Origin: Sphagnum magellanicum
Taxonomy: Eukaryota > Streptophyta > Sphagnopsida > Sphagnales > Sphagnaceae
Length of the DNA: 64,000 nt
NCBI GenBank assembly: GCA_021904315.1
Contig: CM038913.1
Coordinates: forward strand, 5,951,958-6,015,957
Direction of reading: 5' to 3'
A program made the translations under genes and the position numbers. The notes under the pieces are model-generated. The model saw only the letters and a list, made by a program, of their open reading frames with translations. It was not told the origin of the DNA and did no database searches. Shown in pieces: positions 6,956 through 61,975 of the stretch. The stretch's first letter is position 1; every line of letters starts with the position of its first letter.

Positions 6956-9523
6956 TTCACTACAAGTCATGGATGAACATTCAAATGAATGAATTGCATG
7001 GCATTGGCATCCATGACAGGAACACCAAAACCCATCACTATGGGGTGTTGTCAAAATGAGGCACAAAATTGTGAAGAAGTTTAAGAAGAAGAAGGCCTAA
7101 TTGGGTGGCCACCTGGTTACTAATGATACGTAATAATAATAATAATAATATGATTAAATTTTAATTATGTTAAATATTATTTAATTATCTATTTTTTTCA
7201 TTAATTGTTTAGTATAAATGACCTATATATGAACATTTGGCATCATCCAAAAAAAATTCAAAATGGTTTTGAAGAAAATGAGAAGAAAAGAAGTTATTTA
7301 TCTTAGTGTAGGTCGAACAATTAATAGTTTGAATAGCCTCATCAATAACCTTTGTGAAAATTGTGTATTATTGTGTTATCAAATATCAATATTCTTTATA
7401 TTGTTTTGTCACATTCTTTGATCAAAACCATTGGCCTCCATTGTATGTTTCAAGAAACTATTTACATAATATCTTAAAATTATTGCAAAAAAGAAAAACA
7501 TGTTAGTCAAATTCACCTTTTCCATTTGTAATCAATAATTATTTTTCACCTTTGCTATATCCTTTTTCCCTTCCAACAATGATGACAACAATAGTAGGAG
7601 AACTCCAATTTTGAAGAGAATTTTTGAAATTTTTAATGAAATCCACATGGAAAAACATGAGAACCCATTCAAGTTCAAAAATAATGATTGGTGATATAAT
7701 GGTTATCAATTGAACTATAATGACAACATGCATGTCACCTTTTTCAAATCCCTTGTGGATTTTAAGTTAATGTCGAAAATTTTCACCCTCATAAACATGC
7801 CTTTTTGCAAATATTATTTATGCATATTTATATGAAGTGATTTGACCTCAAAAATGTTTATGGTTAAAGCTGCCCTATTCAACAAATCACATTACAAATA
7901 TGCATAACCTTGATCTTCCATGCTTTTATTTGCAATTCAATAAAAGGTGCCATACCTATTGAACACATTTGCTTCAAATGCAATATCTTTAACTTCAAAA
8001 TCCAGATCATTCATCGTAATAATTAATCAAACTTTTTCACTAAAACAACAACCATTGTGGAAGGAAAAAAAACTTATCAAAATGAATTTGACACCAACAA
8101 ACAAAGTAGCAGAAAAATGGGATTTAGCAAACACACGTTTGAAAATATTCAAACTTGCAAAAAACATCAATACTGAATGAAAGCTTAAGTTAGACATAAT
8201 GTTCATGTTAGTTAAAAAGAAAGATAAGAAACATACAATGTAATCCTTAATATGGAACAAATAAACTTGATTGAAACCCTAAACCTTGTATTAATGTTTT
8301 TTGATTGTAACTTATTTTCAATATAGGTTGATTGCAATTTAACGATAAAAAATCACATTTATGGTTTGATGGTTAAATTATGGTCCAATAATGAACAATA
8401 TATCCTACAAATTTTAATTATGCAACTCATGGGTACATCAGAACCCTAATTGTCACAACTTGGATTGGAAATACAACATTTTAACCTTAAAATATTTTCC
8501 ATTGTTTAAACCATTCTTTTCATTTTCACTTCAATGAATATTTATTTGGTAAACATATAAGTATAAATATAAATATGTATTGGTAAACATCAACTTTTTG
8601 ATCACTTGCATGAAAATTTTGGTCATACAAACAATTGAAATTGAATTGTTTTTTAATTTATGGTTAAATGTATTCAATGTTTGATTTCAAATAAGATTTT
8701 ATTTATATAAAAAAATTGAAATTAATTTTTTTGTGTTGAAGTTTTGCCATGTTTGGTGCCCCCAAAAAATGACATTGATTTTTTTGGAAGAAATCTTGTG
8801 AAAATATCCTTGTTAAGTCACCATATTAGGAGAAAGGAAAAAAAAATTACCCCTCTCAATACCACTTAATAAAACTCCTTTATTTTTCAAGTTTAGTAAA
8901 AGCCTACATTAAAAAGAAAAAAAACCCCTTGAGAGATGAATTTTTGAAAATATTTTAACCTTTATGCTCTCCTTCACCCAACTTTAAAATAAAATAAAAT
9001 TACACCTAAACTTATCCATTCAACCTACTTTTGATTCTTTGGCCCCTATACGTGTTCAAAAGGTGTTGCCACAATGTCTTTGCAAAACACACCCAACAAA
9101 GGGAGATCTACACAAAGATGAGCTTGCAAAAACAACTATAGGGGAAGGCACCATGTGGAGAGCCTACCCTAACCCTAACCCTAAGTTGAGGGTCATGGCT
9201 CAAGGGCGGTTACTTGATACCGTGGGCCCGAAAATTAGGGAGGCTCAAGGGAGCAAGCCTTCCCCAGCTCAAAGTACAAAAAGCTTCTCTTATAAAAAGG
9301 CTTACAAAGGGTTACATGTGAATGGTGGAAGGTCCCTTCAATTGACCTAAAACCCTAGCCAAAAACATAGCCAGATTTTCATAGTGTATTTGGAGAAACT
9401 CTTCTTACAAAGCATATTATGGCTGGTGGGCTTTATGAAAATGGAAAGCCCACCCACCTCCATTTTCATGAAGCTCAAAAGGCCATTTATTATTATTTTT
9501 TCCCCATGGGATATCACAAGAAG

Positions 9524-53204: not shown

Positions 53205-53591
53205 TCAGATGAGCAGCTTCTCGATGGCGTCCTTCAGTTGCTGGATTTGCGACTTCAATTGGCTGCCCTCGTTGGTAGTTACGGAACACGCGATGACGGG
53301 CCTTGAAACCCCACAAGCCCGTCCTAATGCTTGCTTGGACGGCACGAACACGTATGGCACGTTCTTGTCCTCCGCTAGCAACGGCAAGTGCAGCAAAATC
53401 TCCAACGGCTCCGTGTCGGCTGCCATCACCACGAACTCCGCTATCCCTCTGTTCAACGTCTTGGTGGCCTCGTTAGCCCCCTTCTTCAGCTGCTTGTAGT
53501 TGCCTGCTTGCTGTACGATGTCCATGATTGTGATGGTCAGCTGGGAATCCGCCAACGGATACGCCTTGGGATTCACTACCTCCGACCCCAT
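53205..53591 (-). CDS. SNU13: SNU13 / 15.5K kink-turn RNA-binding protein, intronless, 128 aa
   Basis: L7Ae/L30e-family protein that binds the kink-turn of U4 snRNA and of box C/D snoRNAs, as part of the U4/U6.U5 tri-snRNP and of snoRNPs (nucleus, nucleolus). The whole protein is visible in one exon: [18 protein letters not shown] at the start, the diagnostic RNA-contact segment [20 protein letters not shown] at about 38-57, then [20 protein letters not shown], then SRPVIACSV, ending in IEKLLI. Length equals the usual ~128 residues. The chosen ATG gives the family N-terminus. The same frame stays open upstream and has another ATG at 53753, which would add 54 residues not seen in the family; I treat that as leader. 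Two AACCCTAAC elements lie ~205-285 bp upstream. Confidence 0.95.
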
Positions 53592-53960
53592 TCTCTCTTG
53601 TCTCCACCTCCAAACGCTTCGAAAGTATCCGACCAACGCAAGACTCTCCCGAGAAGAAGAAACTCGCCCACAAAACAGTCTCCCTGTCCAAGCCACTGTC
53701 GCCGCTGGCCAAAGATGCACAATGACAAAGGAACGAGGGCGGCAAAACAACATCAACAAGAAAAAGCAAACCCCACAAAGCCCTCGATTCACGGCCTAGG
53801 GTTAGGGTTCCAGGTGGAAGACAAAGACCGTTGATGCAAGATCTGGACGGTCAAAAAAGAACCCTAACCCTGAATTCTGGTTTTTTCGTCTTTCTCCTCT
53901 GTCCTCGTCTCTTCTGTGTCAGACAGGGAGAAGAAGAGAGGGAAGCTTCGTCTCTTGCAA
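53592..53960 (-). promoter_or_regulatory. SNU13 promoter/leader with paired telobox-like elements
   Basis: CTAGGGTTAGGGTTCC lies at 53796-53811 and GAACCCTAACCCTGAA at 53859-53874, in opposite orientations about 50 bp apart. In plants telobox (AAACCCTA) elements are typical of genes for ribosomal and RNA-processing proteins; here one base differs from the strict consensus. Whether they are transcribed is unknown. Confidence 0.55.
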
Positions 53961-54718: not shown

Positions 54719-57700
54719 TCACTGTGATTCTTCTTCTTCTTCTGGCATTTCTAAGTTGTAAGGACACTTACTTCCCAACTGCTTGCTGGCATGCATCCTT
54801 GTATTCCATCTAATTGGCTGGCCGGGCTTAGGAGCTTCATCAAAAGCCTCAACTCCTTTTCCATAGTAAGGAAGACAACAATCTTTATGCAAGGTATGAG
54901 AAGTAGTTGAAGGGTTTTGTTCCTGAGCCACAAAATCAGTGATTGCAGCTTTTGTTGCTAAATCAACTGACTGCTGTCGCCGTGCATCTTCCTTTTTCCT
55001 GTGAATTGCTGCTTTGTAGAGAGCTTTTGCTATGGCTGTTTTTCTGGAGGTCCTTGCCAGTAGAGTTGAGCCACGCAAACACTTTGCCAGATTCGGGAGT
55101 TTAGTCTGGTTTGGATGGGGGCTCTTCCGGCTGCAATTTGGAGGAGTAGCGAGTCCACTTGCATCACGGATTTGATGCCAGTCCTGTGAGGCATTTGGTG
55201 AATGCTTTTTGACATCAATGTCCAGGACAGAGAAAATATGGACCTTGAAGATAAGCTTGCTGGGATCTGTGAGTTCAAGCACACAAACATCCCCTTCTTG
55301 TATACGATGTGCAATGGAGAAGGTTCTCCATCCAGTTAAGCAAGGTTGCCTGACATTTCCAGTCCATGTTGCTGTCCATGTCTGACCTATTGAGTCCACA
55401 AGCGTTGACTTGGCAAGCTTCTGAGGCATCCAGAGCTTTGCAAAATCCATGGGTATGGACTGCCACCAGGATTCCACACAACAACAACAACAACAACCCC
55501 CACCCCATGGACCCTATTGCTCAGGAAAGTCTCTTAGCACACATTGCTGTTTCATGTGCAATCCATGTGCATGAAGGTCAGAGTCTCCTCCCCCCTCCTC
55601 TGTTACAGGGTGAAAAGTTACAATTCCTGTCAACAAGCGTTGAGGAGTATGCCTGTGACCACAAGAATTCTACATCACTTCTGCAGGATACCATAACTTG
55701 GAAAGTGGAGGCTGTTATGAGCACTGCCGCTCTTAAGAGCATTGCCACCCCAGACATTGAAGTAGGATAAGCCTTGGGATGGGCACTCACCAGAACAAAA
55801 TGTTGAGACACAGAGTAGCACACTGTGAAACTTGGGTTCTTGACCTTGAATTTGTAGGCAGCCAGAATGTCTCTACACTTATCACCTTCAGAAATAGGAT
55901 GGTGTCTTTGAGATGCAAGTGCCACCTTACCGTGATCTTCTACAAACTGATCACCTGGTGACGTTTTTTCTTGTCTGTTGATTGATTTGCTTTGCAAGGA
56001 TGTTGAAGCAGAGGAGATTCTGCCCAACGACTCTCCATCTGCAAATGCACTCTGCAGTCTGTTGTTGTCATCATCCCTTCTGAAGATATGCACTAAGATT
56101 GTCAGCTCTGTGAAGTTGGTAACTTCAAAGACACAAACGTCTCCTGCTTGAAGACAGTGATCAGATGCAAATGTTGACCACCCATCAGTCAGTGATCCCC
56201 TGTCTAGTCTTGGTTTCCAAATTGCTGAATATAGGTTGCCAGCACTGTCAACCAGAGTTGCTTCTGTGGTGATATCTGGCATCCCAAGCAATGAGGCTGG
56301 TAAAGGCTGCAGAGCAAACCAATATTTTCAGTATGAATGAGATCCTCCTTCAACATTGCAATGCAACATTTATAGTTACTCCTTTTCCATTCAGTCTTCT
56401 TCTCATGGACAGGCACTATGGAGATTCAAGTTGTAACAAGTTGCAGTGGTTTTCTGGAGCACAATCTTCCCCCTGCAGTTCCTGCTCATGTTTGGTTTGA
56501 GCAGAGTTTCTCAATCCCTTCTTCTAGTTTATATTTTCTTGATCTAATAGACATCAACTTCCAAAAGATTATGTTCATCACTCAAAATTGATATGTGCAC
56601 TGGTTCATTGTCCTATTCTGCTTTAGTATATCAGCTCTAAGCATGAGCACCAGCCACAAGACTCTCTTTTTGTAAAAATGGCTGCACACTTTGTCCAGAT
56701 ACTAAAAGAAGTATGTGACTGATTCAAGTGCAGTAGCTTGATGTTTCAGATACGATGTAAATTGAAAAATTTGCAAACCTGGAGGAGGTACAGAGTACAG
56801 AGGTAAATTACTTACAATGGTGGAATTGAGAAGAACATGTAAATCTGCTAAGATGACAGCATCATGGGGATTTGAGGAATTCAATGCCTCCGACCACTCA
56901 ACAGGCTTGTAGTTTTGTTGAGCCCATGATCTCCTGCTTCTTGAATCAGTTGGCATTCCTTCTTGTGGTTTCATAGCTCCTACTCTTTCTGTAGATAGAG
57001 CAACGCAATGGCTCAGACTTCTCTACAATTGGATCAGTGAGCCAGAAATGTGTAGTGTGACCACTTGCATATACACTTAATACAGAATCAACTGTGTTAG
57101 TGATTGATACTTCACCAAACAATCATAAGCAAGGATGGTACTAACAAACCTCCTCCTGTTTTCTGAGTGTCACTATCCTTGTTGCTGCTATCTTTTCCTC
57201 CTCTTTGAACACTGAGCATCTTCTCTTTAGACTCTGCAATGCCTGTATTTCTTAGACTGGCAATATACTCAGCTATCATTGTGGACTCAGTCAGAGCATC
57301 TAGTAATGGTGATGCCAGCTTTTCCTCTTTACTGCAGTTGCTGATTTCTCTAGTTTTTTTGGGTGCTGTGAGCCTTGCTGCTCTGATCATCTCATTTTTG
57401 TCACAGGAATCATCTGATGTACAACCTGGATCAAATTCTGGAAGCTTTGCAGCTGGCCTTTTGGCTCTTGGAGGTGTTTGTTCCAACACCATGACATCAT
57501 CCTCTTGACTTGCCTTTCCTTGACCCGTGGTAGGTAAGGAGTTAGGCACAACCCCTTCCACAATGCTGTGCCGCCAGCCCTTCACACTGGCCACATAATC
57601 TTCCAAGCGCAAGATGCGAACAAAGACATTTATGTTGTTGGGATTTTTCAGCTCCAAGACACAGATATCACCTTCTTTTAGGCTTTGTTGTTGGGCAAAA

Positions 57701-60301
57701 TCAAACCAACCCATTTGAAACCGTGCTGTTGCTCCACATGGGTTGAAGACAACAGGCCACTTCCTGCCACACATGTCTACCAGAAGTATTTTTGTCTTCC
57801 TTCCTGGCAACCATTTGCTCGAAAAACGTTTTGGAACAATCTGCAAAGGAAAGACACAAATCACAGATGTTTCGGAGTGGTTCAGGATGAACCCAATTAC
57901 TGTAGATTGCAAATAGAAGAAATGCGACCACCCATGTCCATGGGCAGAAAGCTTGGTCATGTCATGGTGATTTTGTAGAGAAAAAAGCAAAGTGATAAAA
58001 GAGACTTGAAACTAAGAATGCATCTGCAATACTTGACCAATTGCTGAAGAGCAGTGAGAGCTTTACTGCATCAGAAGTCAGAAACTGAGCTCATGAAAGG
58101 TGCACAAAATGAACGAACTCACCGGACAGCCTGTATTGATATAGGTCTTGCTCATGAAGATTATAGCAGACGGGTTTCTGTTCTTGATTGCCTTTGCAGC
58201 CCTCACCATTTCTTGCCTATTGAAGTTCTCCTCAGCTCCCAGCTGTGTTTGAGAGGGACCAGAGAACATTGTCAGGCTTTCAGCTTCTGACTGTAAACCT
58301 TCAGGTACCTGTGTAAAAAATATATATGAGTGCACTGTGAAGATTACATGTGAAGATTATATGAGAAGCAGTTTTGAGCAGGCTGAAGGACAATCAGAAT
58401 AAGCTTCTTGCAGAGATTGATGCTACAAAAAAGCTCGTTGTCAAGGATCTGTGGGAAGACTACAAGAAGAGGATCTGATTTTCTAAAGCAGCAAAGGGGG
58501 ACACAGGGAGCTATAGAACAAAAACATGAAGAAGCTCAATGACATGGAATGCAGAGAGAAAGAATAGTTACTCCATGCAAAGAGAAGCAAGCAGTTGGAA
58601 GACAAGGAGAGCTACTCGTGGAGTGTGTATTGGCTGACCTCCTCAGAAGTGTACTGCTGCTGGAATTGCTGCTTCAAATCAGATTGCAATCTCTCTCTCT
58701 GATGCCGTCGTTGTTGTCCGGGAATGTTGCCTGCAGATTCAGCAGATGGCTTTGCAGCAGACTTCAGCATGTTGAACTGTTCTCTTTTGTCCTCCTCCTC
58801 CTCCTTGCCCTCCTCGTAATATGTCTTTGGCGCTGGAGTTTTTCCTGGCACTGGCTTCTCTTGTTGTACAACAGGCGGCGGCGGAGGAGACGGCAATCTC
58901 TCAAAGAACAACTCCGGTTGCTCCAAGAATTGTTGCATTTGTTCCAGCTTTTCTTCGTCTTCCGATTGCTGCTGACCAAGGCCGTTGCTGAGACTTCTTC
59001 CGGTTCCAGACGGCTTCTCCCTGAAACCAGAGGTGAATCCACCATTTCTGCGCTTGCAGCAGGATGCATCTTCCTCCTCCGGTTCTGGTACCTTACGCTT
59101 TCTCCCTGCAGCTTGAAGCTTGTTGCAGGGATCAGCAGCAATCTCAGTCTGCACTGGATTCCTATTTCTCAACTTCTTCCGATAATCTGAAGAGGCTGGT
59201 GGATCACTCTCATGGCTGTCTGCAGCGTCCCTGAGAACACAACATGGATGTTTGGAGAAAGTTCGCGGCGAGTCGTTGAAGGTCCTCCTGTGCTTGTCAG
59301 GATCTTTCATGTCACCAGGAAAAACAGTTTTCTGACAACCCTGCTTGCCATAGATCTTCAGAACGAAGTGCGAGTTTCGCGTGAGGTTGAACATCACGCT
59401 GTCGCCGAATTGTATTCCGTGGTAATCGGAGAATTCTCGAAAGCCTGATCGCAGACCGAAGGCATTGTTGAACGCCAGCAACGGCACTTGACAGCTGAAC
59501 CCCGTCGGCCCTTCCAACGTTACCTTGTCGTCAATTCTGTACCCGTGCTGCTCCATGAACAAGCTCGGAATCCGCTGCAACAACAACAAAAATGCATGGA
59601 ACACTCAGAAAAAGACATGATCACCGATGCAATTCTCCAATCTCAACACCAAAGGTTGTCGGAACCAAAATATTCAGATCACAAATGCTGCTGCTGCTGC
59701 TGACGTTCGATTTGCACAAAAGAAAGCAAGCAAATGCAGAGATAAGATTGCTTTGCAGAAATGCTCCAGAAAAGCAAAAAACACATCATCATCATCACCA
59801 TCATCATCATCTTCTTCTTCTTCTCCTTCTGCTTCTTCTGTTTTTGCTTCTTCTTACTTACAAATACATTTTGATCACAAATGCTGCTGCTGTTCATGAT
59901 GATGATTGATTTGCACAAAAGAAAGCAAGCAGATAGATGCAGAGACAAAATTACTTTGCAGAAATGCTCCAGAAAATCAAAAAACACAACAACATCATCT
60001 TCTTCTTCTTCTTCTTCTTCTATTTCTTCTTCTTTTTGCTTACCAGGAATCTGGATCTGTGGTCTTCATTGCTATCCAGAATGAGCTTGATGAAAGATGG
60101 TGCTGGCAGCTGCATTTGATCATTACCACCACCACCACCAACACCACCACCAGCAGAAGGAGCATGATGATGACGATGATGAAGAAGAAGAGGATCATTA
60201 CTAGCCTGATGATTTGCAAAACAGAAATTTGTGCACTTTGTGCAAGCACTGAACTTTTTCCCATAAGCTACTGCTTTTCTACTATTGCTTCCAGGCTCCA
60301 T
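54719..60301 (-). CDS. Four-B3-domain DNA-binding protein (REM/VRN1-like), 7 exons, 1166 aa
   Basis: Plant-specific B3 transcription-factor-type protein, expected in the nucleus. Minus-strand exons: 60301-60044, 59574-58639, 58308-58123, 57840-57150, 56988-56816, 56306-55791, 55459-54719; all GT-AG, total length an exact multiple of three. After a Cys-containing N-terminus (ACTKCTNFCF) and a His/Gly-rich stretch come B3-1 (about 68-164), B3-2 (443-545), B3-3 (about 733-826, with a degenerate first strand) and B3-4 (905-1000). Each B3 keeps a D/E-GD-V/I-C/M-F/L-E/N core such as KEGDICVLEL or EGDVCVLEL. Linkers are charged, with a KR-rich stretch and SPPPPPVV after B3-1. A phase-0 intron splits every B3 at the same point, just before a basic/small-I-P segment (RIPSLF, IVPKRF, PLPASL, SIPMDF). 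The start is the first ATG before the Cys motif. Two separate genes is the main alternative. Targets unknown. Confidence 0.88.
59677..60043. repeat. Tandem duplication (~196 bp) in intron 1 of the B3 gene
   Basis: Copies start with GATCACAAATGCTGCTGCTG at 59677 and a near match at 59873. Both carry GATTTGCACAAAAGAAAGCA, TTTGCAGAAATGCTCCAGAA and a following run of (TTC)n. The second copy runs up to the splice donor of exon 1, and the first copy carries a donor-like counterpart. Confidence 0.88.
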
Positions 60302-60427: not shown

Positions 60428-60815
60428 AAGTGTAATTCCAATGACAAAGATTCATCCAAGCTGGTTTCAGTATTTCATCCAAACGCAATTCTAATAAAGA
60501 TGATCATTCATTCATCGGAGCTGGTTTAGGTAAGATGATTATAAAATCTCATAATATTTTTTTATTTTTATAAGTGTAATAATTCTAATGACAATTATTC
60601 ATTGAAGCTGGTTTAGGTAAGACGATTATAAAATCTCATAAATATTTTATTTTATAAGTGTAATTCTAATGATGATGATTCATTGAAATTGATTTAAAAT
60701 AAGACGATTATAAAGTTTCATAATTATTTTTTCCCTACCAAGTGTAATTTCAGTGACGATGATTTATCGGAGTTGGCTTAAATAGAACGACTATAAAATT
60801 CCATAACATTTCATC
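60428..60815. repeat. Five-copy ~84-bp array just upstream of the B3 gene
   Basis: Units carry AAGTGTAAT, a C/T-AATGA block, ATTCAT(C/T)G(G/A)A, GCTGGTTTAGGTAAGA and CGATTATAAAATCTCATAA. AAGTGTAAT occurs at 60428, 60572, 60656 and 60740; a unit near 60485 has a diverged start. The array begins ~130 bp upstream of the B3 start codon on the minus strand, in the expected promoter. Confidence 0.85.
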
Positions 60816-61353: not shown

Positions 61354-61975
61354 AACCCTGAGCTTCTTTGGGTCAAATGGGTCTTTTGAATGAATGCAGG
61401 AGAAAATCCGGTGTCCTCCCCCTGCCCACCCGAAGGCTCTTAGGGTCAATTGGGGTCTTTGGAACGCACGAGAAATTCCACCTTCCACCCTGAGCTTCTA
61501 ATGGTCAATTGGTCTTTCCAATGCATGATTCATTCTGCCCCCCTCCACCCTGAGCTTCTTAGGGTCAACTGGTCTTTCAAATGCATGAGGAATTTTGCCC
61601 TTCAGTCTCAGAGAGATTCCGCCCTTGACCCTAAGCTTCTTAGGGTAAACTGCATTTTCACATGCATGTGACTGGCACATAAAAACATCCATAGGTCCTA
61701 ACCATTACTGGGAGTTCTGCCATTCACCCTAAGTTTCTTAAGGTCAACAATGCTTTCAAATGCATGCGACCGGCACATAGAGCATTGCCAGGTCTAACAA
61801 ATAGTGCGAGATTCTGCCCTTCACCCTAAGCTTCTTAGGGGCAATGGAGTGCCAAGTATGTTAGGTAATGGTCACTGGTAGGACTTTGATGGAGAGAGAG
61901 AGAGAGAGATTAAGCCCTTCACCCTTAGCTTCTTAGGGTCAACTATGCTTTCAAATGCATGTGACTGGCACATGG
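61354..61975. repeat. Eight-copy degenerate repeat with a CCCTAAGCTTCTTAGGG hairpin core
   Basis: Units start with ACCCTGAGCTTCTT or ACCCTAAGCTTCTTAGGG near 61354, 61430, 61488, 61548, 61628, 61727, 61822 and 61920, followed by GTCAACTxGTCTTTCAAATGCATG and, in the later units, TGACTGGCACAT. The core has 7-bp inverted arms (CCCTAAG/CTTAGGG) around CTT. Spacing is irregular (about 57-100 bp). Confidence 0.85.

Follow-up and report, generated by a model that had tools for sequence, protein, structure and literature searches.

We analysed a 64,000-nucleotide stretch of the Sphagnum magellanicum genome (the window; assembly GCA_021904315.1, contig CM038913.1, positions 5,951,958 to 6,015,957), in which a minus-strand gene running from 60301 to 54719 has a predicted product with four B3 domains (B3-1 to B3-4). 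Very probably, this is a moss REM-class B3 factor gene with an intact predicted frame, whose four-B3 plan came from an ancestor shared with its paralogues, whose domains carried an old intron along with them and whose product would be a multivalent DNA binder. The gene appears to be an ordinary, well-formed member of the known REM family. Its four-domain array is common to a paralogue, L009, and two further relatives have kept different portions of it; together they illustrate how REM genes with several B3 domains may gain and lose parts of their arrays.

Four B3 domains split by phase-0 introns

The gene model has seven predicted exons, which join to 3501 nucleotides and encode 1166 amino acids and a stop codon. 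CAG stands immediately 5′ of the codons for RIPSLF, IVPKRF, PLPASL and SIPMDF, giving four acceptors inside the B3 domains, and the junctions concerned (exons 1/2, 3/4, 5/6 and 6/7) are all in phase 0; the two linker junctions are in phase 0 (exons 2/3) and phase 1 (exons 4/5). Exons 1, 2, 4, 6 and 7, all except exons 3 and 5 (62 and 58 codons), were scanned as open frames with Pfam, and the back halves of the four domains matched the B3 model with E values of, in order, 4.1e-8, 4.2e-11, 8.7e-11 and 4.7e-10, all above the curated cut-off. No domain other than B3 (AP2, ARF/Aux-IAA or zf-CW) was found in the scanned frames. Splice model and Pfam matches therefore agree on what an initial annotation of the window had proposed: four B3 domains, each with a phase-0 intron at an equivalent point. 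Judging by its open frame, its splice sites and a paralogue with matching domain order, the gene is presumably expressed as a single transcript across all exons.

Among solved structures, B3-2 with its leading helix is closest to Arabidopsis VRN1 (REM5; PDB 4i1k; E = 8.4e-15), the second B3 of which aligns with B3-2 over almost the full length (residues 3-117 of 117). The other B3 proteins among its PDB matches are At1g16640 (PDB 1yel; E = 0.059) and TEM1 (E = 0.48). VRN1 has two B3 domains, whereas the window gene has four and, by the two-B3 criterion, falls outside VRN1 proper. One report places VRN1 in eudicots only and describes its DNA binding as lacking sequence specificity (PMC6599366).

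The intron position is a family trait

A search of the genome (438,994,042 bases in 31 contigs) returned at least 75 Pfam B3 matches. Twenty paralogue regions were picked by hand, and together with the window and loci L003 and L004 they contain 47 B3 back halves. Outside these 47 rows stand L001 and L002, in which an entire B3 lies in one open frame and which were judged not to be REM, and loci L005 to L008, which are short versions of regions included elsewhere. A phase-0 AG occurs at the predicted codon with no shift in 34 of the 47 back halves, and in 41 if eight rows are allowed a shift to a suitable AG close by; because we chose the shifts ourselves, these eight rows are not independent. 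Inside the same domains AG precedes just 232 of 2955 codons (7.9%), a background that places the B3 boundary beyond chance. The acceptor is missing in six rows (L003_1, L012_1, L023_2, L027_1, L027_2 and L028_1); L003 has its complete B3 within one open frame, and there are stops in the stretches around L012_1 and L027_2. The donor search in the paralogues took in GT at codon boundaries only, and the independent evidence comes from acceptor phase, not donor phase.

The same splice position was reported by Romanel et al. (2009) in moss REM class II and Arabidopsis REM VI (PMC2688026). As described for the class II genes of Physcomitrium patens, the B3 is split in two exons in all four domains of the window gene, an equivalence taken from the text of that paper and not from an alignment. 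Because the intron is family-wide, its presence in all four domains is no evidence for duplication within the gene, and we caution against reading such a position in that way. Nor are four B3 domains exceptional, because REM proteins carry 1 to 11 of them, with internal B3 duplication also reported (PMC2688026); the remark in the initial annotation that the protein is larger than most REM or VRN1-like proteins is set aside on the same ground.

A four-domain plan that probably predates the window gene

Across the 21 regions, the window included, four B3 domains occur in 2, three in 3, two in 12 and one in 4. The main tree comprised 39 of the 47 B3 domains plus VRN1; the remaining eight rows (L012_1, L012_2, L012_3, L013_1, L024_1, L027_1, L027_2 and L028_1) were dropped beforehand because they were near-copies, were damaged or incomplete, or contained a long insert, and all trees were built without ABI3, RAV or ARF rows. 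In the main tree, B3-1 (row WIN_1) pairs with L020_1 (support 98/90) and next with L009_1 and L019_1 (99/93), B3-2 (WIN_2) pairs with L020_2 (99/94) and next with L009_2 (94/85), and B3-4 (WIN_4) clusters with L009_4 and L019_3 (92/87). A single clade uniting the four window domains was rejected by approximately unbiased (AU) tests (p = 2.7e-5), as was one of domains 2-4 (p = 1.05e-6), and with these an origin of the four as a set within the window gene after its split from the paralogues. On this phylogenetic evidence, the set of four appears to be older than that split.

When At1g16640 was added, all 200 bootstrap trees kept 16 first-position domains apart from 20 later-position ones (94/97; five rows uncounted); B3-1 falls on the first-type side and B3-2 to B3-4 on the later-type side. 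The initial annotation had proposed tandem duplication of a two-exon B3 cassette inside this gene and had named separate old clades as the result that would speak against it, and such a separate group is what this split reveals for B3-1. An exception to the position rule is L024_2, a second domain of the first type (69.5 versus 35.5 bits). For VRN1 B3b the later-type model gives 65.9 bits and the first-type model 33.4, and At1g16640, of which only the alignment residues were used and which sits on a long branch of unsure place, scores 38.1 bits on the first-type model against 29.5 on the later-type one. Because of these two Arabidopsis rows, both long-branched, the split between the types may be older than that between mosses and angiosperms. 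A clade of first-type rows was not rejected with At1g16640 (p = 0.349) or without it (p = 0.373), which is no proof of such a clade.

The paralogue L009 (C8:8331000-8340000) is like the window gene in its four B3 domains in the same order and in an N-terminal C-x2-C-x3-C-x3-H motif; unlike it, L009 has five exons, each a multiple of three, and 993 amino acids, and is without linker introns. All its junctions are in phase 0, and its linkers (218, 84 and 107 residues) stay open throughout. L020 (on C1) has kept B3-1 and B3-2, and 3′ of these, at about 7789-8292, come fragmentary stretches similar to B3-3 (linked E = 6e-6) and to the B3-4 front half (E = 0.004). L019 (on C14) has kept B3-1, B3-3 and B3-4. 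An ancestral four-B3 gene with later losses would be the simplest account of these sequences.

The ancestral plan would have been one first-type domain followed by three later-type domains, passed on to the window gene and its paralogues. Duplication of a two-exon B3 cassette likely gave rise to B3-2, B3-3 and B3-4, the old REM phase-0 intron being copied along with each duplication of the later-type cassette. The tandem duplication of the initial annotation would hold for these three domains, set in an ancestor common to the paralogues and not in this gene alone.

Several observations weigh against this reconstruction. B3-3 (WIN_3) is not placed by the main tree, and the WIN_4 group (92/87) and the group of WIN_2 with L009_2 (94/85) fall below the level starred there. 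AU tests reject neither the grouping of B3-3 with L009_3 and L019_2 (p = 0.215) nor its grouping with B3-4 (p = 0.283), and a single clade joining this lineage's nine later-type domains is likewise neither rejected (p = 0.365) nor proven. The gap of L019 holds a weak match to a B3 front exon (E = 0.023), which by its place may be a remnant of B3-2 but best matches the front half of L009 B3-4 and not any B3-2. An in-frame stop interrupts the last B3 of L019 in its front half, before the expected donor, and this gene may therefore be damaged. Finally, B3-1 matches solved structures weakly (E = 0.96).

As a separate observation, L011, L012 and L013, all on C13, are near-copies of one gene; L011 and L012 have three B3 rows apiece, the first row in L012 lying next to stops, and L013 has one.

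Alternative routes to four domains

Tandem duplication of a single two-exon cassette within the window gene itself, as the source of all four domains, has scarcely any chance of being right. The phase-0 intron position common to the four would fit, as would a pairing of B3-3 with B3-4 alone (p = 0.283); set against this, the clades that such a history calls for are those rejected above, the intron is found throughout the family and L009 has the same domain order. Fusion of two adjacent two-B3 genes into one four-B3 gene is only slightly easier to credit and still very improbable. Regions with two domains are the commonest (12 of 21), and the extra linker introns at exons 2/3 and 4/5 could mark old gene boundaries, but the linkers of L009 are uninterrupted. 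A fusion would also be expected to bring in a second first-type domain, because the first domains of the 16 tree-tested regions are all of that type, and the window gene has one only; L024, with its first-type second domain, provides a counterexample to the rule behind this expectation.

A better contender, though we still think it unlikely, is an array that grew by duplication of a symmetrical 0-0 exon, consisting of a back half, a linker and the next front half, instead of a two-exon cassette. Such exons occur in both genes, as exon 6 of the window gene and as the three internal exons in L009, and duplicating one of them would add one B3 in a single step. Going from two domains to three in this way, however, would copy a first-type back half, and back halves 2 to 4 are of the later type; the step from three to four could still have followed this route. 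We accordingly favour inheritance of the plan from the shared ancestor, with cassette duplication having taken place there.

B3-3 and contact with DNA

The protein is most likely nuclear and would bind DNA multivalently. By analogy with VRN1, contact with DNA would be made by the basic N-arm of B3-2 and probably also by those of B3-4 and B3-1. Among the first 21 residues after the intron, B3-2 has six Lys or Arg, B3-1 and B3-4 have three apiece and B3-3 has none; the back half of B3-3 carries a net charge of -7. Reasoning from VRN1 and from charge, the acidic B3-3 would probably serve mainly as a spacer or for protein contact. The loss of DNA contacts that the initial annotation suggested for B3-3 is conceivable, but low charge alone does not demonstrate it, because L018_2 is also at -7. 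In the same post-intron stretch, L019_2, the probable counterpart of B3-3, has no Lys or Arg and L009_3 has three. The weak first strand ascribed to B3-3 by the initial annotation is partly borne out: with a model built from 17 rows outside the window, its front half reaches 6.1 bits, where that of B3-2 reaches 30.3 and that of B3-4 12.1.

An N-terminal Cys/His motif

The pattern C-x2-C-x3-C-x3-H precedes B3-1 in 6 of the 21 regions (the window, L020, L019, L009, L022 and L010). Over all six-frame stretches of at least 25 residues it occurs seven times, compared with an average of 1.16 in shuffled stretches; the seventh occurrence, in L016, belongs to a short frame that does not share a strand with the B3 gene there. 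In L024 the C-x2-C-x3-C part is followed by a His placed one residue later, and L011, L012 and L013 have C-x2-C only. Canonical CCCH zinc fingers are spaced C-x6-14-C-x4-5-C-x3-H; we rejected this identity for the motif, the spacing of which differs and whose exon (exon 1) has no Pfam match. Literature searches on the Cys motif found no description of it in the titles or the opening lines of the abstracts of the papers listed. It is conceivable, and we put it forward tentatively, that the N-terminal segment forms a short metal-binding module, so far undescribed, which goes with the first-type REM B3 and was kept through gain and loss of B3 domains downstream. For the N-termini of REM proteins, the motif offers a modest starting point that can be tested.

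Features and genomic surroundings

Table 1. Predicted exons and N-terminal motif of the four-B3 gene (window positions; approximate Pfam B3 ranges in brackets)
Feature	Position	Strand	Basis
Exon 1: start codon, Cys/His motif, B3-1 front half	60044..60301	-	splice model
C20-x2-C23-x3-C27-x3-H31 motif, common to paralogues; possible metal-binding site	60209..60244	-	sequence pattern
Exon 2: B3-1 back half (~59347-59574) and linker	58639..59574	-	splice model, Pfam
Exon 3: last 34 codons form B3-2 leading helix and front strand	58123..58308	-	splice model
Exon 4: B3-2 back half (~57607-57840) and linker; phase-1 intron next	57150..57840	-	splice model, Pfam
Exon 5: B3-3 front half	56816..56988	-	splice model
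Exon 6, symmetrical 0-0: B3-3 back half (~56076-56306), linker, B3-4 front half	55791..56306	-	splice model, Pfam
Exon 7: B3-4 back half (~55229-55459), C-terminal tail, stop	54719..55459	-	splice model, Pfam

The next gene on the same strand (53208-53795, minus) encodes a Ribosomal_L7Ae protein (E = 2.5e-27), which we take to be SNU13/NHP2-like; its best other copy, 96% identical, is on C6. The best other copies of a leucine-rich repeat (LRR) neighbour are on C9 and C6, and those of a cupin neighbour on C1 and C11. In a search for a genome-duplication partner of the window gene, none of the B3 domains among the at least 75 matches lay within 2 Mb of those C6 and C9 places.

Just upstream of exon 1, at 60510-60732, is a tandem repeat with a period of 87 and 2.6 copies, and further upstream of the gene, at 61484-61844, are two tandem arrays (periods 60 and 98) with a common core like CACCCT(A/G)AGCTTCT(A/T)AGGGTCAA. 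Elsewhere in the window, an open frame on the plus strand (1417-2025) matches the DDE_1 endonuclease (E = 5.5e-11) and is likely a DNA transposon remnant.

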